The notes under the pieces: generated by a model
What the model was told of the DNA's origin: nothing
What the model saw: the letters and a program-made list of their open reading frames with translations, nothing else
Databases searched by the model: none
Shown: positions 1 through 8,006 of the stretch, piece by piece
How positions within the stretch are numbered: position 1 is the first letter of the stretch
How the letters are laid out: each line of letters begins with the position of its first letter
Position numbers and translations under genes: made by a program
Assembly: GCF_000269805.1 (NCBI RefSeq)
Contig: NZ_JH711481.1
Location: 34,006 to 67,941, forward strand
Origin: Actinomyces massiliensis 4401292
GTDB lineage: Bacteria > Actinomycetota > Actinomycetes > Actinomycetales > Actinomycetaceae
Reading direction: 5' to 3'
Length of the DNA: 33,936 nucleotides

Positions 1-1313
1 GTTCTGCACGGGGCGTATACCCGCCTGGGACTGGGCGAGGCGGTCGGTGGTGATCGGGCCTTTGAGCAGATGGTTCTGGCGCGCTTGATCGAGCCGACCT
101 CCAAGGCCCAGGTGCCCTGCATGCTGGCAGACCTGGGCCTGGAGTCGGCTAGCGTGCGGACCTTGTTCCGCTCCCTGGGTCGCTGCATCGAGCGCGACTA
201 CCGCCAGGCCATCAGTGCCGCGGCTCTGAAGCACGCCATGGCCGCCGGCGACGTGTCACTGTGTCTCTACGACGTCACCACGCTCTACTTCGAGACCGAG
301 AAGGAGGACGAGCTGCGCAAGGTCGGCTACTCCAAAGAGAGAAGGGTCGACCCCCAGATCATCGTCGGGCTGCTGGTCGACCGGGCCGGCTTCCCCCTGA
401 GAATTGGTTGCTGGGAGGGCAACCGGGCTGAGACCACCACGATTGTCGGTGTCGTTGAACAGTTCCGCCAGGCCGCCAAGGTCGAGCCCCTGGTCGTAGT
501 CGCTGACGCCGGCATGCTCTCGGCCGCCAACCTGAACGCCCTGGATGAGGCCGGAGTCGGCTTCATCGTCGGTTCACGCACCACCCGCGCCCCGGGGGAC
601 CTGGAGGCCCACTTCCACTGGCACGGGGACGCCTTCACCGACGGCCAGGTCATCGACACCATCACCCCCAGAAGAGGCTCGAACACCGAGCGGGACAAGA
701 GCCGCAAGGCCGAGCCGGTATGGGCCCCGGAGACCCATCCAGGCTCATGGAGAGCGGTATGGGCCTACTCCAAGAAACGCGTGGCCCGGGACAACCAGAC
801 CCTCACCGCTCAGGCCAATCGCGCCAGGGCCGTCATCGCCGGCGAGAAGCGTCCCAAGTCCACACGTTTTGTCACCACCCGCAAGGGAGACCAGGTCCTC
901 GATGAGGCATCCATCGCCAGGGCCAGGTCCCTGGTGGGTCTCAAGGGCTACGTCACCAACATCCCCGCACGCTTGATAGACGCCGGTGAGGTCGTCTCCT
1001 CCTACCACGAGCTGTGGCACGCCCGAGCAGTCCTTTGCGGATGAGCAAGCACGACCTGCCAGCCCGCCCCGTCTTCCACCACACCCGAGACGCCATCGAG
1101 GCCCACCTGACCATGGTCATGGCCTCCCTGGCCGTAGCCCGCCACCTCCAGGAGGCCACCGGGATCAGCATCAAACGCATCATCCGCACCCTTAAACCCC
1201 TCCAGGAGGTCACCATCAACCTCAACGGCCACCACCTCACCGCCGCACCACAACTAACCCCCAAGGCCGAGCAAATTCTCACCGCCCTGAGCACCCCACC
1301 CCCAGCACACTAA
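1..1313 (+). pseudogene. IS1634-type DDE transposase, frameshifted, 5' end outside window
   Basis: The frame is open from base 1, so the gene starts before the window. It encodes a transposase of the IS1634 type (IS4-like DDE fold): the YDVTTLYFE segment near base 270 carries the first catalytic Asp, and ADAGMLS near base 505 looks like the second-Asp region. The frame reads to about 1020 (SYHELWH) and stops at 1044. The expected C-terminal part (RMSKHDLPARPVFHH and onward) continues in another frame from about 1041 to the stop at 1313. Comparing the two parts suggests two separate one-base insertions, one in GCCCGAG (about 1021-1027) and one in TTTGCGG (about 1034-1040). The element is therefore probably inactive unless ribosomes shift frame. 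Its right terminus must lie between 1314 and 1358, directly against the protease stop codon. Family call is confident; exact group less so. Confidence 0.8.
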
Positions 1314-1358: not shown

Positions 1359-3578
1359 TTACCCTCGCACGCGCTCCTGAGCTCGCTCGCGTGCGCGTTG
1401 ACGGAGTCTCACTCTAACCTCGTCATGAATAGCTGTTGACACTCCTTCGGCCGTTTCGACGGATACCACGAGTGCGTATCGAACCTTATCATCCTTAGCG
1501 AGATGTTTGGCGTCATCCATGCACTCAACGTGGACCGGAAAAATATCGCCATCTTCAAAGGTCATCGCTCGTGAACCTTGAACGATCTCATGTTGGAGGC
1601 TTCCGCGTCTCACGGCATGGCGTTCCCCTTCTATCCGATCGCCTGCTGCAAGCTTTGTGTCTGGGGTGTCGAAATATACCTTCGCCCTGCGATAACGGCT
1701 TAGTTCTCCTACCGTCGGAGCCGCATAGGCCAGTGTGATGGTGAAGCAGTGCCACTCTGCTCGTGATCGGAGCGACGGTGGTAGCGGTACCTCGTAAGTG
1801 TGACGCTCATTCCCACCAATACGGCCACCGGAGACCAATACCGCACGATTGGTGGCGGCTGTACCGAGGCGCGCAGGATCGAGCTTGCCGTATCCGAGCA
1901 GTGCGGAAAGCTTTCGGCGGACATCCTTTCGAGGGATGTCTAGCTCCCGGCAGAACTGTGCCTTCCATCCTCCCCAACTGCTTTCGTGCGCAAGAAGAGC
2001 TCTTACAAGCAGGGGGTGATATTGAGCGTCCGGCATGCGCGATTCTTCAGGCTCCGCTATGCCGGATTCAAGGATATCGAACAACCGGCTTGCTTCGCGC
2101 GTCACCAGCGCGGTGGCGTTGCTGGTACCGAACGTGAAGGCTGTCTTGTTCTTAGCACCATCCTTGGCGGGCGCTGCAACTTGAAGTCCTGGGCCGGTCT
2201 GAGCTGTTCGAGCTAACTCTAAGTCCACCTGGTCTTCATCCGACCCGATAATGGGGCGAACGTAAAGCGCTCTACCCCCAATATAATGCAGGTCGGGCTT
2301 GATCGAACGACCTACGCCGGGCCCGGTTGCCCCATAGTAGGCCGGTACCCCACGACTGGTGATATCCCACACCGAGTCGGCTACTTCGATACAGCCCAGT
2401 CCGTCGTCATGGGTAGCGCCGACCGTCAGCGCGTTGAGCGCGTCGCCGGGAGGTAGAATTCCCTTAAGAATGCTGTCGCTATAGGTGGCATGCACGGCCG
2501 CACGCTGCGCGTCCTCCACCGTCTTTGCGGATGTCGCCGGGATTGTAATTGGGTCGGTATGGTTTCCGGCGCTAACGATAAAAAGCAGATTATAGCTCTG
2601 AGCAAGCCAATCCAGCAGCCGACCAACAGGGCTCATCCGACGGGTAAGAGCTCGCACTTGTGCCCCGATGGAGAGATTTATAATCCTGACGCTGGGAGCG
2701 GTGGCTTCGTGGCCGCCTTCACCTTCCTGGATGCGTCGAATAGCACGATGGAGCAGGTCTGGGAATAGCTGGTCGGGATACACCCGCTCGGCTGTGCTTG
2801 AAAACTCGTCAGGACGCATTATTGGTCGTACATATAGTGGACGATCAAGTGGATCGCCTGCCGATGACAGATCGCCGTGAATAATTAGTGACGCCATGGC
2901 TGTACCGTGATTACGGGCAGTGATCGGGTAGTCGTCGGCAACGCCGTCGGGGTCATCGATCAGGAGCCGACCTGCCAATGCATCATGGTTTTGGAAGGGC
3001 AGTCCATCCAAAAGCGCTACACGCGGAGACCCCTCAACCCGTATATCTGCCCGTAGGCGTACTTCCGCCACCGGGTTCTGAGCCACTGGGGTTATGGTCA
3101 TTGGGGTGAACGGACTGACGAACATCACGTCATCGGCGGTGAGCAAATGGATTGCCTCAGCTCCGTCCCTGAGCACCGCTTGTACCTGCTGGATCGGAAG
3201 CTCTACAAGGAGGGCGTGATATGAGATACTGCCAATTTGTGAGCTGTCGAGAATACGTCCACCAGTCGCAACTATGATCTGTTCGACATGGGATTCGGCC
3301 TCGGCTCGTTCCGCTTGCTCACGCCGGTACCAGAGTTCCACCTCAACTTTCACGGTGTTGATGGATTGACCGATCATCGTGAGAGTTTCCTGCCAGTGTT
3401 TGCGAAGACCAGTCTCGCGGATGCGGTCTTCTGACCCCCAGCGCCTGATCGAGGTTAGCTGCTGGAATGCATATTTGAATTTTCCGAGTCCGTGCTCCAA
3501 TTTTCTTGCCGGGTCTTGTTGCCAGAGCGCGAACAGTCGAATCAGCTCATCAATCGCTTTGGAGCTCGACATCACCAT
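1359..3578 (-). CDS. S8 subtilisin-like protease (Y4bN-like), catalytic C-terminal part of a split gene
   Basis: This 739-residue frame holds a whole subtilisin catalytic domain: Asp191 (LLDGLPF), His224 (RNHGTAMAS), oxyanion Asn339 (SAGNH) and nucleophile Ser486 (FGTSNATA). Residues 1-170 match the N-terminal region I know from Y4bN-like subtilases (LWQQDP, IRRWGSEDRIRETG, VEVELWYRR). Residues 590-739 form a C-terminal beta-rich extension ending in an Arg-rich tail. The start shown is only the first Met after a disruption. The true N-terminal 130 residues lie at 5405-5793, beyond a 1,819-bp insertion, and rejoining them gives one 870-residue protein. The partner is the AAA+ ATPase at 5790-6746. 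Such ATPase-subtilase pairs recur in mobile islands; a role in defence or protein quality control is inference. Codon use is less GC-biased than in the core genes, fitting transfer. No signal peptide is visible, so it should be cytoplasmic. The fragment may still be translated, but is probably non-functional. Confidence 0.8.
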   Translation of the reverse strand: MVMSSSKAIDELIRLFALWQQDPARKLEHGLGKFKYAFQQLTSIRRWGSEDRIRETGLRKHWQETLTMIGQSINTVKVEVELWYRREQAERAEAESHVEQIIVATGGRILDSSQIGSISYHALLVELPIQQVQAVLRDGAEAIHLLTADDVMFVSPFTPMTITPVAQNPVAEVRLRADIRVEGSPRVALLDGLPFQNHDALAGRLLIDDPDGVADDYPITARNHGTAMASLIIHGDLSSAGDPLDRPLYVRPIMRPDEFSSTAERVYPDQLFPDLLHRAIRRIQEGEGGHEATAPSVRIINLSIGAQVRALTRRMSPVGRLLDWLAQSYNLLFIVSAGNHTDPITIPATSAKTVEDAQRAAVHATYSDSILKGILPPGDALNALTVGATHDDGLGCIEVADSVWDITSRGVPAYYGATGPGVGRSIKPDLHYIGGRALYVRPIIGSDEDQVDLELARTAQTGPGLQVAAPAKDGAKNKTAFTFGTSNATALVTREASRLFDILESGIAEPEESRMPDAQYHPLLVRALLAHESSWGGWKAQFCRELDIPRKDVRRKLSALLGYGKLDPARLGTAATNRAVLVSGGRIGGNERHTYEVPLPPSLRSRAEWHCFTITLAYAAPTVGELSRYRRAKVYFDTPDTKLAAGDRIEGERHAVRRGSLQHEIVQGSRAMTFEDGDIFPVHVECMDDAKHLAKDDKVRYALVVSVETAEGVSTAIHDEVRVRLRQRARERAQERVRG

Positions 3579-3582
3579 ATAT

Positions 3583-3585
3583 AAG
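3583..3585. repeat. left copy of 3-bp duplication (AAG) flanking the insertion
   Basis: AAG at 3583-3585 matches AAG at 5405-5407. Deleting 3583-5404 joins the two protease fragments in the same frame through codons for Leu-Tyr-Met, as expected for an insertion that duplicated 3 bp. A 3-bp match alone could be chance; the frame restoration is what supports it. Confidence 0.5.
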
Positions 3586-3692
3586 CTGGATAAACAACGC
3601 AGCTCCCGACCCGCACCATCTGACCGTGAGGCTGGCCTGTCTACTCATGATCGCAGACCCTCCCGAGAATGCCAGGCGCCAAACGGTCCTTG

Positions 3693-4397
3693 TCATGCCG
3701 GATAGCGTTCCTCGAACCATGCCACCACGGTGTCAAGATACGGGGGTCGGCCAAGGAAGTGCTGGCCACCCTCGATCTGGACGAGTTCGACCCCGGGTGC
3801 GCCGACGAACCGGCTGAGGGTGCCCAGAGGGACCATTTCATCCTGGTCGCCGCGAATAATCCAACTGGGAATGTCCAACCTCGCCGGATGCTTCTCGACA
3901 AAACGTAAGTAGGGCCATTCGAGCACCCCACGAGGCGTGTTGATCTCGGTCTCTGCCTCCAGCTGCTCATCGGTCACCGAGTACTCGGCCATCATGTCCC
4001 GGATGTAGTACTCGAGGTCAAGAAGCGGTGACACCAGCCAAGCGCGCTCGAAGGTCCCGGCAGGCGTGTCGCACAAGGAGAAGTAGGCCCCAATACTGTT
4101 CGCAAGCAGACCGATCTCAGTCGACTGGCTGCGGGCCAGCTGTGCGAACGTTCGTACCTCGGGACTCGCCTCCATGGGGTTGAAGGCCTTGTCGTCCCGA
4201 CGATTACCGTGGGTGGGCAGATCGAAGGTGAACAGCTGGTCTCCCCGCGACGCAATCACGTCGCCGCACTGTGCCATGATGGGATCACGCTTGTTCGAGA
4301 ACTGGCCGTGCACACCGATAACGGCCCTCCCACCGGGCTCTCCCCACCTCAAGGCGGGAATTCCGTCGAGGACGAGTTCCTCCGGCTCACAGCTCAT
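3693..4397 (-). CDS. alpha/beta hydrolase
   Basis: A 234-residue protein with the order of motifs expected of a small alpha/beta-fold hydrolase: an HG oxyanion segment (VIGVHGQF, residues 27-34), the nucleophile elbow LLANSIGAY with Ser101, a candidate acid at Asp184 or Asp186 (RGDQDEMVP), and His213 (EGGQHFL). The elbow reads A-N-S-I-G instead of the usual G-x-S-x-G. A 'cap' segment rich in acidic residues follows (about 126-170). There is no signal peptide or membrane segment, so it is probably a cytoplasmic esterase, lipase or peptidase-like enzyme; the substrate cannot be read from sequence. A GGAGAG ribosome site precedes the ATG. It sits alone, as a passenger inside the insertion that splits the subtilase gene, next to the IS5-type element, and is not obviously part of the ATPase-subtilase operon. 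Confidence 0.8.
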   Translation of the reverse strand: MSCEPEELVLDGIPALRWGEPGGRAVIGVHGQFSNKRDPIMAQCGDVIASRGDQLFTFDLPTHGNRRDDKAFNPMEASPEVRTFAQLARSQSTEIGLLANSIGAYFSLCDTPAGTFERAWLVSPLLDLEYYIRDMMAEYSVTDEQLEAETEINTPRGVLEWPYLRFVEKHPARLDIPSWIIRGDQDEMVPLGTLSRFVGAPGVELVQIEGGQHFLGRPPYLDTVVAWFEERYPA

Positions 4398-4491
4398 GGA
4401 TCATCTCTCCTTCAGAACCAGAATCCCGTGAACAGCAAAGGCAGCAGTGACTCCTATGAGGAAACCTTCGTCTTAGGCATACCATGCCATA

Positions 4492-5404
4492 GAGGCTTAT
4501 TCATAGGGGTGTTTAGGGTGTTTTGTTGGTAATAGCGTGTCGCTAAGCAGGGTGGCGGCTTGCTCTTGAGAGAATCTTTGGTGCTTAAGCCAATCCAACC
4601 AAGAAGCAAACCGCCATGACGAATAGTAGCACGAGAATCCCTCGGTGTGAGGTTATGGGCCTGTGCGAGGCCATTTTCGCCGAGAACCCCGATCTGCCGG
4701 TCTTCGGGGCGAGGGTGCTGGGGCTGTTCCTGTGCGTGCGCCTGACCCTGACCTACCTGCGGCACAACCTGCCCCAGGAGCTGCTCGCCGAGCTCTACGG
4801 CGTCTGGCAGGCCACCGTCTCCCGCGTCATCAGCACCTACACGCCCCTGATCGCCGCATGCCTGAACGGCAGTGTTCCAACGGTGGAGGACCTGGACCCC
4901 ACGGCCCAGCTGATCATCGACGGCACCCTGCTTCAGTGCTGGTCCTGGAAGGACCACCCCGAGCTGTACTCCGGTAAGCACAAGACCACGGGGCTGAACG
5001 TCCAGGTGGCCTGCACCCTGTCAGGGACCCTGGCCTGGATCTCCGACCCCCAGGACGGATGCACGCACGACGCTCAGGCCCTGCGCCGCAGCGGCCTGCT
5101 CGACGTCCCCGCCACCGACCTGCCCGACGGGGCGTCACCACCCAGGCATATTGGCGACAAGGGATACATCGGACTGGGCATGATCACCCCGAAAAGAAAA
5201 CCCGCAAAACTTCCCCTCCACCCAGACGACAAGGCCTACAACCGGGCCGTCAACCAGATCCGCTACAAGATCGAACGAGTCATCGCCAACATCAAGACCT
5301 GGAGAGTCCTGCACACCGGCTACAGAAGACCACCGGAAACCTTCCCAGAAACCATCACCGCAGTCCTCGGACTCATATTCACCTACACCCTATGAATAAG
5401 CCTC
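4492..5404 (+). mobile_element. IS5-family insertion sequence, complete
   Basis: The element is 913 bp long. Its ends are perfect 17-bp inverted repeats, GAGGCTTATTCATAGGG at 4492-4508 and its reverse complement at 5388-5404. The outermost two bases (GA) may be flank, making the minimum element 4494-5402. It encodes one intact transposase, whose stop codon lies within the right inverted repeat. The bases immediately outside the two ends do not match each other, so this copy is not flanked by its own target duplication. The wider 1,819-bp segment has one instead. Confidence 0.85.
4616..5395 (+). CDS. IS5-family transposase
   Basis: A 259-residue transposase with an N-terminal helix-turn-helix (about 35-80; LPQELLAELYGVWQATVSR) and a C-terminal DDE nuclease domain of the DDE_Tnp_4 type. 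Catalytic residues visible are Asp102 (LIIDGTLL), Asp181 (HIGDKGYIG) and Glu220 (YKIERVIAN). It catalyses excision and insertion of the element by cutting at its inverted repeats. Length is normal for the single-ORF IS5 subgroups such as IS427/IS1031, and there is no frameshift, so it may be active. An alternative start is Met14 at 4655. The TGA stop (5393-5395) lies within the right inverted repeat, leaving no non-coding DNA at that end. Confidence 0.92.
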   Translation: MTNSSTRIPRCEVMGLCEAIFAENPDLPVFGARVLGLFLCVRLTLTYLRHNLPQELLAELYGVWQATVSRVISTYTPLIAACLNGSVPTVEDLDPTAQLIIDGTLLQCWSWKDHPELYSGKHKTTGLNVQVACTLSGTLAWISDPQDGCTHDAQALRRSGLLDVPATDLPDGASPPRHIGDKGYIGLGMITPKRKPAKLPLHPDDKAYNRAVNQIRYKIERVIANIKTWRVLHTGYRRPPETFPETITAVLGLIFTYTL

Positions 5405-5793
5405 AAGGAGTGCTGCACATACTTGTCGGTACGGCCCGCTTCACGCTCTGTCATATGGAAGTCGTCATTGGGCTCCGCAGTGTCACCGAGAAACTGGGAT
5501 AGGAACTCAAATCCGTCGATCTTGTCGATCGCGTTCTGAAAATCCTGTACTGTCCCCGCTAAATCGAAAACGACGACCAACGCGGGGTCTACCTCATCCG
5601 GTGAATCTGCAGCAAGGCGCGCTCTTTCAGCTTCAAAAGCTGCCGCAAGTTTCCGAAACTGGGGCAAGAGTCTCGTGCTCTGGCGGGCGCCAGTCGGCTT
5701 CGAAATGCGCGGCATATCTCGCGGACGTTGTGAGGGCCGATCACCTACGACTGGCGGTCCGAACGCCAGGAGTGGCCTACGCTCTGCAGTCAT
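5383..5793 (-). pseudogene. N-terminal fragment of the split S8 subtilase
   Basis: The first 130 residues are protease sequence and the last six (RLIHRV) are read from the IS end. The fragment resembles the start of Y4bN-like subtilases: a basic leader, then LLPQFRKLAAAFEAER, a segment VVVFDLAGTVQDFQNAI, then GFEFLSQFLGD and DDFHMTE. This N-terminal part is conserved in the family. I infer a prodomain-like or partner-binding role. The gene starts with ATG at 5793 that overlaps the ATPase stop as ATGA, so the two were translationally coupled. Joining 5793-5405 to 3582-1359 gives 2,613 bp, 871 codons, with no internal stop. The ending KYVQHSL flows into the LYMVMSSSKAID start of the other fragment. 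Confidence 0.85.
5405..5407. repeat. right copy of 3-bp duplication (AAG) flanking the insertion
   Basis: Second copy of the AAG found at 3583-3585, placed directly outside the right inverted repeat of the IS5-family element. Together the two copies bracket the 1,819-bp insertion. Confidence 0.5.
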
Positions 5794-6746
5794 TCCGTTC
5801 CCTGATCGCGCCTGTGTTCGAGTCGTTCTTGGACGATTCGACGCAGGTTATTGTCTGGGAGTTCAAGAATTGCCCGACGACGCACATCCAGTGCAAATTC
5901 TTCCAATTCCGCGTAACTTGCCCCGGCTAGCTTATCCGCTAGCGTTCGGGGAGCGAAGCCGAGATCACCGCCGAGACGAGCAGCGAGTCGTTCTAGGAAG
6001 CGTGTCGCTTGCGTGCGGCTAGGCGCATCAAGCTCGGCACGAATTTGGAATCGGCGCCATGTTGCACGATCTAACAGTTCACTGTGGTTCGTGGCACCAA
6101 CGAAAATGACGTGTGCGGGGAGACGATCGACTTGGAGCAGCAACGTGGATACGACTCGTTTGATCTCTCCGGTTTCGTGTTCATCAGATCGCTCTTTAGC
6201 GATGGTGTCGAGTTCATCGAAGAAGAGCACGCATCGACGCGTGCGAGCGAATTCGAAGGCGCTATCAAGCCTAGCCGCGGTCTCCCCCAAGAAGCTGGAC
6301 ACCACACCCTCGTACCGGATGACGTAGAACGGGAGCATGAGTTCTGCCGCAATGGCCTCCGCGACGCTGGTCTTACCGTTGCCTGGCGGGCCCGACAAGA
6401 GAAGCCGGTTACGGGGTTCAATCCCGTAACTGCGTAGGAGATCGGCCCGCTTCTGCTCCTCGATAAGTTCTGTGACGACTCGACGCGGCACGGGCGCTAG
6501 TTCGATGTCGCTTAAACGGCGACTTGGGACGATTTCCTGAACCAAGTCTCGGATCGCTGCTGATTGTTCATCCCGCACATGGCTTTGGCCAGTCGTCGTG
6601 ATGAGCTCAGAAAGGCGGTCGGCCACCAAGTGGTGCTGATTAGCTCGTTCCTCAGCGATGACCGACTCGACCAGCACTCGGAAGCGGTCTCGATCGCCCC
6701 GACGCTCTGCTTCGACCAGGTCAAGGAGCAGGTCTGCTCGCGCCAT
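5790..6746 (-). CDS. AAA+ ATPase, partner of the subtilase
   Basis: A 318-residue single-domain AAA+ ATPase. Walker A is GPPGNGKT at 119-126, Walker B VLFFDELD at 173-180, sensor 1 GATN at 217-220, and the RRF at 231-233 may hold the arginine finger. Residues 1-90 are helical and charged and lack a recognised domain; they may bind the substrate or the protease. The fold is like the classical FtsH/proteasomal ATPases, which assemble as hexamers and move proteins. Its stop overlaps the ATG of the subtilase N-terminal fragment (ATGA, 5790-5793), so both were one operon. A plausible model is an ATPase that recognises or unfolds targets and activates the protease. With the protease gene broken, the ATPase may now act alone or be a relic, though its own frame is intact. 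A GGGAGG site precedes the ATG. Confidence 0.88.
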   Translation of the reverse strand: MARADLLLDLVEAERRGDRDRFRVLVESVIAEERANQHHLVADRLSELITTTGQSHVRDEQSAAIRDLVQEIVPSRRLSDIELAPVPRRVVTELIEEQKRADLLRSYGIEPRNRLLLSGPPGNGKTSVAEAIAAELMLPFYVIRYEGVVSSFLGETAARLDSAFEFARTRRCVLFFDELDTIAKERSDEHETGEIKRVVSTLLLQVDRLPAHVIFVGATNHSELLDRATWRRFQIRAELDAPSRTQATRFLERLAARLGGDLGFAPRTLADKLAGASYAELEEFALDVRRRAILELPDNNLRRIVQERLEHRRDQGTE

Positions 6747-7060
6747 GTCCTGCCTCCCAGCCTCGCGTCAAAATCGTCAACAAGATTCTACCGTGGTTGG
6801 CTCTGAAGCATGCAGAGACCGCGCCGACAGTAGGGGGCTGCACCACGGCACAGGTGCGGTCGCACGAGAGCACCGCTACCGACGTCGACCGCTGAACCCA
6901 TCAACTCGAACGAGGATCACGGTATGCCCGCTGCGCTAGCAGCTTCTACCCGCACACGGGTTGCTGGTCGCCTTCGCCATCGACCAGGTCGCCCAGCGGA
7001 AAGTCGCCGAAAACGCGTTTTACGCCGGAGCCGCCCCGAGAACGGAGAGGTGACCGGCTG
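6747..7060. other. intergenic stretch with possible coding remnant
   Basis: No complete gene is convincing here. On the plus strand a frame at 6940-7053 encodes QLLPAHGLLVAFAIDQ and then VAENAFYAGAAPRTER, whose composition looks like the end of a real protein. The frame is closed upstream by a TAG at 6937-6939, so it may be a remnant of a deleted gene. A 45-codon Arg-rich frame (6924-7061) overlaps the next ATG but looks unnatural. The segment 6747-6920 holds the upstream region of the ATPase gene and nothing else I can recognise. Confidence 0.35.
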
Positions 7061-7261
7061 ATGGTGCGCACCTACCACCACAAGACCACCCGACCCTTTG
7101 CAGTCCGGAAACTGCACGTCACCTTCACCCATCGGGAGGAGATCGATGCGGAGAAGATCGCCGAAGTCCTCATTCGCGTGGTGCTGCGCAACGCCGGGCG
7201 GCGCACCACCATCGTGACCGCCGGCGCCCTTCTACAGCAGCTGCTGGCCGCTCAGCGATAG
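7061..7261 (+). CDS. small protein of unknown function upstream of recombinase
   Basis: A 66-residue basic protein (MVRTYHHKTTRPFAVRKLHVTF...). I do not recognise it. The composition is balanced and the C-terminal half (EKIAEVLIRVVLRN, then VTAGALLQQLLAAQ) looks helical, so it is more likely a real gene than a random frame. A GAGAGG sequence about 11 bases before the ATG could serve as ribosome site. It is 159 bp upstream of the truncated serine recombinase on the same strand, so it may be an accessory protein of that mobile element. Confidence 0.5.
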   Translation: MVRTYHHKTTRPFAVRKLHVTFTHREEIDAEKIAEVLIRVVLRNAGRRTTIVTAGALLQQLLAAQR

Positions 7262-7420
7262 AATCATCTTGCATGTCCATTGGGCGCTACCGGCACCTTT
7301 TCGAAAGGCTCGACCGAATTTGTTACGGCCGGGACGCACCTTTTTCTCCTGCACGTGACCGCCACCCGGGGCCCCACACCCACCCCCTAGCGGGTCAGCA
7401 CCGGAAAGGCAGTCACGACC

Positions 7421-7942
7421 ATGAACATCACAGAGCCCGCAGGCATCGACCTCGCCGCGCTCCGCGCACTCGTCAACTCATTCCTACACGAAGAACGAGA
7501 CAAGATCCTGCCGGACGGGAAGTCCCCCGCTATCTCCTACTTGCGGGTCTCCGCCAAGGACCAGGCCGCTCGCAACGGCCTCGCAGAAGGCCTCCCGATC
7601 CCCGCGCAACGCGAAGCCGCCGACCGGAAAGCCGAGCAACTGAACGCGGTCATCATCGCGGAGTTCATCGAGCCCGGCGAGTCCGCGAACTCCGCCCACC
7701 GCAAAGCACTCCAGGAAATGCTCGACTACATCGGCGCGCACGAGGTGAAGTACTGTATCATCAACAAGGTCGACCGGCTGGCCCGCAACCGTCTCGACGA
7801 CGAGGAACAGGTCATCATTGAGGCCACCAAGCCCGTCGCGACGATCCTCGACACGGCCGCGAAAACGAAGAACGGCAACGCCCGAACCCCATCCGCATTG
7901 AAGCGGGGCAAGGTTCGAACGTTGCCGATTACGTGGAGCTAG
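7421..7942 (+). pseudogene. serine recombinase (resolvase N-terminal domain), C-terminally truncated
   Basis: Residues 36-127 form the catalytic domain of a serine recombinase: YLRVSAKDQ contains the nucleophile Ser44, followed by PIPAQREAA and the KVDRLARNRLDD helix at 117-127. These enzymes cut and join DNA at attachment sites. Large serine integrases are 400-550 residues long and carry zinc and DNA-binding domains. Here the homology ends near residue 130, and the remaining 45 residues read into the 3' end of the tRNA-Ala gene, where the TAG stop (7940-7942) is located. The gene is therefore cut off, probably by deletion or an earlier recombination at the tRNA. A 44-residue N-terminal extension precedes the domain. 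It cannot be a complete integrase, although the small catalytic domain might still fold. Confidence 0.75.
7907..7926. repeat. 20-bp near-palindrome next to tRNA 3' end
   Basis: GGCAAGGTTCGAACGTTGCC is palindromic except at one symmetric pair (position 6 and its partner). Its GTTCGAAC centre echoes the T-loop of the adjacent tRNA. It lies 7 bp beyond the tRNA 3' end and next to a serine recombinase remnant. It may be an attachment half-site, or a hairpin that helps end tRNA transcription. Confidence 0.45.
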
Positions 7943-8006
7943 GGGGATTCGAACCCCCGACCTTCTCATTGCGAACGAGACGCGCTACCAACTGCGCCAT
8001 AGCCCC
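7934..8006 (-). tRNA. tRNA-Ala (anticodon CGC)
   Basis: Read on the minus strand, 73 nt fold as a cloverleaf: acceptor GGGGCTA pairs with TAGCTCC (one G-T), D-arm GCGC-AGTTGGTA-GCGC, anticodon stem TCTCG/TGAGA around loop TTCGCAA giving anticodon CGC (decodes GCG, alanine), and T-arm GGGGG-TTCGAAT-CCCCC with a standard T-loop. The discriminator base is A, and CCA is not encoded. The accessory island begins immediately beyond the 3' end, so this gene probably served as its integration site. Confidence 0.97.

Follow-up and report, generated by a model that had tools for sequence, protein, structure and literature searches.

Known ATPase/subtilase pairs and the identity of the locus

The IetAS pair of the Agrobacterium plasmid pTiC58, reportedly described by Yamamoto in 2009, consists of an AAA ATPase antitoxin and a subtilase toxin, and the PADLOC profile models of the family bear its gene names. 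The locus described here lies in a 33,936-nucleotide stretch of Actinomyces massiliensis 4401292 (the window; G000:C1:34006-67941, in a genome of 3.37 Mb) and combines the same two kinds of protein. Unlike the pTiC58 pair, it belongs to a chromosomal contig, in a high-GC and probably actinobacterial genome, and an insertion divides its protease gene, ietS. SgiAT of Salmonella genomic island 1 resembles the window pair in its protein families, in its operon with the antitoxin gene upstream of the toxin gene and in its location on a genomic island; the subtilase SgiT is reported to be toxic and to be neutralised by the AAA ATPase SgiA (PMC5006074). SgiAT differs in being intact, and the toxin and antitoxin roles of its proteins were put to the test in E. 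coli. TA132/133 of Mycoplasma mycoides (AAA-ATPase/subtilisin-like) likewise has a two-protein design with the antitoxin gene first, although its protease is intact and smaller (757 amino acids, aa); according to earlier work cited in the paper on it, a minimised mycoplasma dies if the ATPase alone is deleted but tolerates loss of the protease or of both genes (PMC8562856). IetAS itself is listed among anti-phage systems, with its mechanism unknown (PMC11878078, PMC9958689). There, the same pair is also mobile-element-borne and linked to phage resistance in Pseudomonas, but it is carried by a phage, namely one of the 12 Pf phages of PMC11878078. A search of the open-licence literature, which leaves out subscription papers and preprints, returned no account of IetA's control over IetS.

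As judged by its profile matches, the window locus is IetAS, an already known system of AAA ATPase IetA (antitoxin) and S8 subtilase IetS (toxin). The ATPase matches the PADLOC IetA model PDLC04232 over profile positions 1-319 of 330 (expectation value, E, 5.2e-145) and the Pfam AAA domain PF00004 (E 8.9e-31); it carries GPPGNGKT and FFDELD, which we take to be its Walker A and Walker B motifs. The two protease pieces match different parts of the IetS model PDLC04233 (855 positions), the N-terminal piece at positions 2-125 (E 1.5e-30) and the C-terminal piece at positions 125-853 (E 5.2e-270), and the latter also matches Pfam Peptidase_S8 (PF00082, E 8.8e-17). By these scores, the matches of all three lie far above chance. 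Residues D191, H224, N339 and S486 of the C-terminal piece are invariant among 11 aligned IetS proteins, in agreement with the intact Asp/His/Ser residues noted earlier from the sequence; D191, H224 and S486 presumably form the catalytic triad, with N339 as the oxyanion residue. The ATPase gene lies directly upstream of the protease gene, and the ietA stop and ietS start share four nucleotides, ATGA, as previously noted.

Our preferred reading, which we hold with high confidence, is that the locus is an IetAS toxin–antitoxin or phage-defence pair on DNA of probably recent arrival, whose ietS is interrupted by an insertion sequence (IS) together with 906 bp of captured DNA. In an intact system, free intracellular IetS would poison the cell and IetA, made just upstream with the 4-nt overlap, would restrain it, both as shown in the published relatives. 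Loss or disturbance of IetA, whether through loss of the carrying element or through phage takeover, might then set IetS free. The sequence-only reading had proposed a conflict system in which the ATPase senses or gates the protease. Its general idea now finds a name in IetAS and is consistent with what is published on relatives (PMC5006074, PMC8562856); its sensing or gating part stays conjectural. As a whole that reading is partly supported; it named neither the IetAS family nor the antitoxin polarity of the ATPase.

The interrupted protease gene and the inserted DNA

IetS in the window is cut after residue 130 by a 1,819-bp insertion, so that the ietS reading frame is not uninterrupted. The N-terminal frame (5383-5793, minus strand) has 136 aa, the last six of which are read-through into the IS end, while the C-terminal frame (1359-3578, minus strand) is open for 739 aa. 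The two pieces were aligned separately on eight intact relatives (genomes G034, G022, G005 and G021, and plasmids of Kocuria, Gordonia, Rhodococcus and Mycolicibacterium). In all eight, the end of the N-terminal piece and the start of the C-terminal piece fall on adjacent residues, with none missing. Each relative has a single IetS frame of 858-877 aa, counted from the start that overlaps ietA (the Mycolicibacterium plasmid record annotates a later start), and the N-terminal 130 residues are present in every one. Given that these relatives keep one continuous frame spanning the break, the 739-aa frame is a remnant, and the possibility that it is the normal protein was rejected. The split by insertion proposed from the sequence alone thus holds, and so does the position given for the N-terminal part; its length of 130 codons becomes 129 codons plus two bases. 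The total of 871 codons for the rejoined gene is the figure of the sequence-only reading.

The insertion itself resolves into two parts, an IS and a captured chromosomal piece. The IS has a transposase with DDE_Tnp_4 and HTH_Tnp_4 domains, terminal inverted repeats and a short target duplication, and is presumably IS5-like. Contig C3 has two further full copies (C3:113986-114898 and 117052-117961; 99% and 97% identical), each within perfect 3-bp direct repeats (TCA/TCA and TAG/TAG). The window IS taken alone has unlike flanks, ATA/AAG; instead, AAG/AAG encloses the whole unit of IS plus captured DNA. The captured DNA occurs once in the genome. Within the genus, with ten candidates scored per genome, it is matched in 8 of 49 genomes, namely the window's own, G010 near full length (88% identical) and six others in part. 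The G010 match stops within one base of the window IS start, its similarity on the left begins at, or a few bases from, position 3586, and no IS was found in 3.9 kb around it. The simplest reading is a single transposition in which the IS took flanking DNA along; the insertion also illustrates that 0.9 kb of adjoining chromosomal DNA can travel with an IS. The one-ended mechanism is something we only infer, because no second IS end is evident.

The structure model of the C-terminal piece is weak (mean predicted local distance difference test score, pLDDT, 58.3; predicted template modelling score, pTM, 0.65; 7 sequences). In this model, a beta-alpha-beta-beta-alpha-beta block at residues 75-159 precedes the catalytic domain. 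The best Foldseek match is the pro-subtilisin ProN-Tk-SP (3afg; E 2.1e-12, template modelling score TMq 0.37, root-mean-square deviation 12.5), which we read solely as support for the order prodomain, protease, beta domain; no solved-structure relative of IetS was found by sequence at E 0.001. The model suggests that intact IetS may have a prodomain, and one could speculate that IetA acts on it.

The window copy is most likely inactive as a system, because foreign DNA precedes the catalytic part, whose first ATG, at 3578, has no ribosome-binding site discernible by eye; IetA is probably still made. A different outcome would be that the 739-aa frame works as an N-terminally truncated protease, expressed from the co-oriented hydrolase gene of the captured DNA, with the copy altered and not dead. 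Its open frame, the intact triad and the prodomain-like block that the weak model places just ahead of the catalytic domain would suit such a protein, and the hydrolase gene, running in the same direction, ends 114 bp upstream. We nevertheless regard this as unlikely, as the 130 residues that it would lack are kept by all eight aligned relatives, and as no Shine-Dalgarno-like stretch is seen before ATG 3578, unlike at the hydrolase and ietA starts (all judged by eye). No promoter-like sites were found within 3400-7300. The features of the locus are collected in Table 1.

Table 1. Positions of the IetAS locus, its insertion and the flanking features in the window.
Feature	Position	Strand	Evidence
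ietA, AAA ATPase (antitoxin), 318 aa	5790..6746	-	PDLC04232 and PF00004 profiles, sequence
ietS N-terminal piece, 129 codons plus two bases, 4-nt overlap with ietA	5405..5793	-	PDLC04233, alignment with relatives
C-terminal piece of ietS, with a region resembling a prodomain, the S8 catalytic domain (D/H/S) and a C-terminal beta domain	1359..3582	-	PDLC04233, PF00082, invariant residues; order of domains by the weak structure model
Inserted unit, 1,819 bp, in AAG direct repeat (3583-3585 / 5405-5407)	3586..5404	.	
IS element of 913 bp with perfect 17-bp inverted repeats; two more full genome copies	4492..5404	+	
IS transposase, 259 aa	4616..5395	+	DDE_Tnp_4 E 2.1e-24, HTH_Tnp_4 E 2.3e-11
Captured chromosomal piece, 906 bp, 88% identical to G010 locus without IS there	3586..4491	.	
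Alpha/beta-hydrolase-like gene in captured piece, 234 aa	3693..4397	-	PF12697 E 2.8e-5, 25.3 bits, slightly below cut-off 26.3
Transposase frame, one side of locus	70-1044		
Resolvase N-terminal fragment, other side	7421-7942		PF00239 E 3.1e-12
tRNA-Ala	7933-8006		

The pair in relatives and the fate of IetA

At E 0.001, 17 of 99 relatives have a match to the IetS model PDLC04233, which in five genomes beside the window's is near full length with at least 830 bits. At 1e-15 the model matches 14 of 396 order-sample genomes, seven of them, the window's included, with at least 795 bits, and IetA adjoins every IetS that scores at least 795 bits. IetA at E 1e-40 is found in 30 of the 396 order-sample genomes (33 loci) and in 13 of 49 genus genomes (14 loci), which gives 44 distinct loci; the counts for IetS (order sample) and for IetA (order sample and genus) are lower bounds, with 2, 5 and 34 first-look candidates scored per genome, respectively. 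Adjacency of the two genes, on which the sequence-only reading depended, mostly holds: a local profile search (six seeds for each profile, including four of the 44 loci) showed an IetS frame on the same strand, 679-913 aa from stop to stop, adjoining IetA at 38 of the 44 loci, with weak IetS scores of 29-49 bits in four of these pairs (G403, G101, G127 and G291). The remaining six are two loci broken in IetS (the window and G028), two at contig ends (G205 C44 and G003), G337 and G122; the pairs in G051 C8 and G054, found via IetS, stand outside the count.

G337 (L122, 3-2524) appeared in the profile search as an orphan IetA, and this was rejected, since a divergently oriented subtilase lies about 390 bp away, in no operon with it. 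In G122 (L143, 1571-2578), an IetA-like ATPase has no protease neighbour and FDNLD replaces the usual Walker B motif; it looks like either a true orphan or a protein that is not IetA at all. G110, where IetA was listed with one TGA, was rejected as a counter-example: a stop-free frame of 335 aa covers profile positions 1-318 of 320, and the TGA is taken as the gene's own stop because this frame runs without one.

A 4-nt overlap between ietA and ietS (ATGA or GTGA) is present at all nine closely checked junctions, those of the window and of eight relatives. Both genes occur together on mobile DNA, on 5/5 viral contigs bearing IetS or IetA and on each of the four inspected among 106 plasmid records with an IetS match; IetS had no match in the phage collection at 1e-10. 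One intact plasmid pair, of Kocuria rosea, consists of IetS WP_284563975.1 and IetA WP_284563976.1. Intact pairs, for which the sequence-only reading had suggested a search, were found, and defence neighbours beside them were seen in part: PADLOC defence models match beside three of the five intact relatives tested, in scans of part of the flanking frames where some matches hit broad enzyme classes. The matches are in 3/5 frames of G021 (MADS-like twice, type IIG enzyme), 1/2 of G022 (type IIG enzyme) and 4/4 of G059 (RecD-like, weak restriction enzyme, ShosA, methylase).

Several other observations speak against the preferred reading. The toxin and antitoxin roles are carried over from published relatives and are putative for this subtype, and sgiAT expressed from its own promoter is reported to give no post-segregational killing (PMC5006074). 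The IetA model at E 1e-40 matches 4 of 14 named control genomes, for which reason some of the weaker IetA matches may be other AAA proteins (the IetS model matches 0/14 at 1e-15 and 1/14 at 1e-3). A loose scan of ten further pairs for ATGA, with GTGA not sought, found it in four, and the G059 frames, as first called, overlap by 34 nt. A 3-bp repeat such as the AAG/AAG around the inserted unit arises at a given place with a chance of 1/64. Scanned flanking frames gave no PADLOC match in G034 (0/10), G005 (0/5), G028 (0/2) or the window with its upstream side (0/2). Finally, the 739-aa piece might act if translated, because it retains the prodomain-like region and the triad.

A second locus with an intact ietA and a broken ietS is found in G028 (L050, 8500-10672), where IetA is complete (E 3.4e-145) and ietS ends after 193 aa; the break adjoins broken ISL3-type transposase DNA (PF01610, E 3.4e-28), and both element and site are unlike the window's. 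Elsewhere, G069 C109 has IetS pieces in two frames with no IetA within the 9 kb read, and G143 has a lone 129-aa frame with an IetS C-terminus and no IetA within the 10.5 kb read. Among the examined loci, no full-length IetS lacked IetA, in keeping with an antitoxin role of IetA. A weak IetS hit in G051 C22 (E 9.6e-4) was not confirmed with a profile built for this analysis. In G041 C56 (L166, 3915-5903), IetS lies in pieces and a 201-aa frame is weakly similar to both proteins; this is a decayed second IetAS, and the same genome has an intact pair on contig C67.

The sequence-only reading had held that the broken protease beside an intact ATPase would fit selection against a costly or toxic effector, and this stays unproven. 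With ietS at about 2.6 kb and ietA at 0.96 kb, the probability that two hits both fall in ietS is about 0.54, and gene length alone can thus explain two of two. A related proposal is that the ATPase is kept as protection against IetS on incoming plasmids or phages. The two separate IS-broken loci with intact IetA would agree with such an anti-addiction role, as would the plasmid pairs of Kocuria and Gordonia, whose IetA proteins are 89-91% identical. The ratio of nonsynonymous distances (dN) of IetS to IetA likewise rises to 3.1-3.8 for the window's C-terminal piece, compared with 2.1-2.9 in three intact pairs of its own group. However, for the N-terminal piece the ratio (2.6-3.5) overlaps that of intact pairs (1.8-3.5), and in G028 it (2.6-3.2) is not above the 3.2-4.7 of three intact pairs of that group; all these ratios were compared without statistics, with the majority of synonymous distances at saturation or undefined. 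Moreover, the length of ietS suffices to explain where both hits fell, and three other decayed loci have IetA gone or in pieces too. The relative rates are mixed, and on such distances selection on IetA after IetS loss is neither shown nor excluded. We consider the protective role improbable. Equally doubtful is its wider form, in which IetA outlasts its toxin and serves as a standby antidote, so that cells could retain or lose plasmids, islands and phages that bear IetS, and IS-broken ietS loci would mark a general anti-addiction state. That an extracellular or housekeeping subtilase adjoins an unrelated ATPase by chance is barely credible: subtilases are common, and the genome has three besides its two IetS, but the IetS-specific profile, the 4-nt overlap and the adjacency across genera contradict it.

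The locus is a real, already known and ordinary system, interrupted by a real insertion, and the identification of the pair removes the need to postulate a new one. Here IetAS is naturally without its toxin but keeps its antitoxin, and a divergent pair elsewhere in the genome is intact. The locus could thus serve to ask whether antitoxins persist longer than their toxins, but alone it does not settle how IetA controls IetS.

Genome setting and the second pair

The GC content at third codon positions (GC3) of ietA and ietS is 0.56-0.58, compared with mostly about 0.7-0.9 in neighbouring frames, and this difference suggests that the IetAS-bearing DNA may have been recently acquired. The resolvase fragment on one side overlaps into the end of the tRNA-Ala gene (7421-8006), and this may be the edge of an island. 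A search of G000:C1:24000-67941 (44 kb) for a repeat of the tRNA-Ala end, as might mark an island border, gave none longer than 14 bases. A search of the contigs gave a single distant relative and led no further.

The second pair of this genome, at G000:C1:324152-327706, is intact and belongs to another subfamily. Its IetS has 854 aa, with PDLC02198 as best model (E 5.2e-39), and its IetA has 328 aa (PDLC02196, E 1.3e-69) and is 34% identical to the window IetA. On the two sides of the pair lie genes for an arginine repressor and a deaminase.

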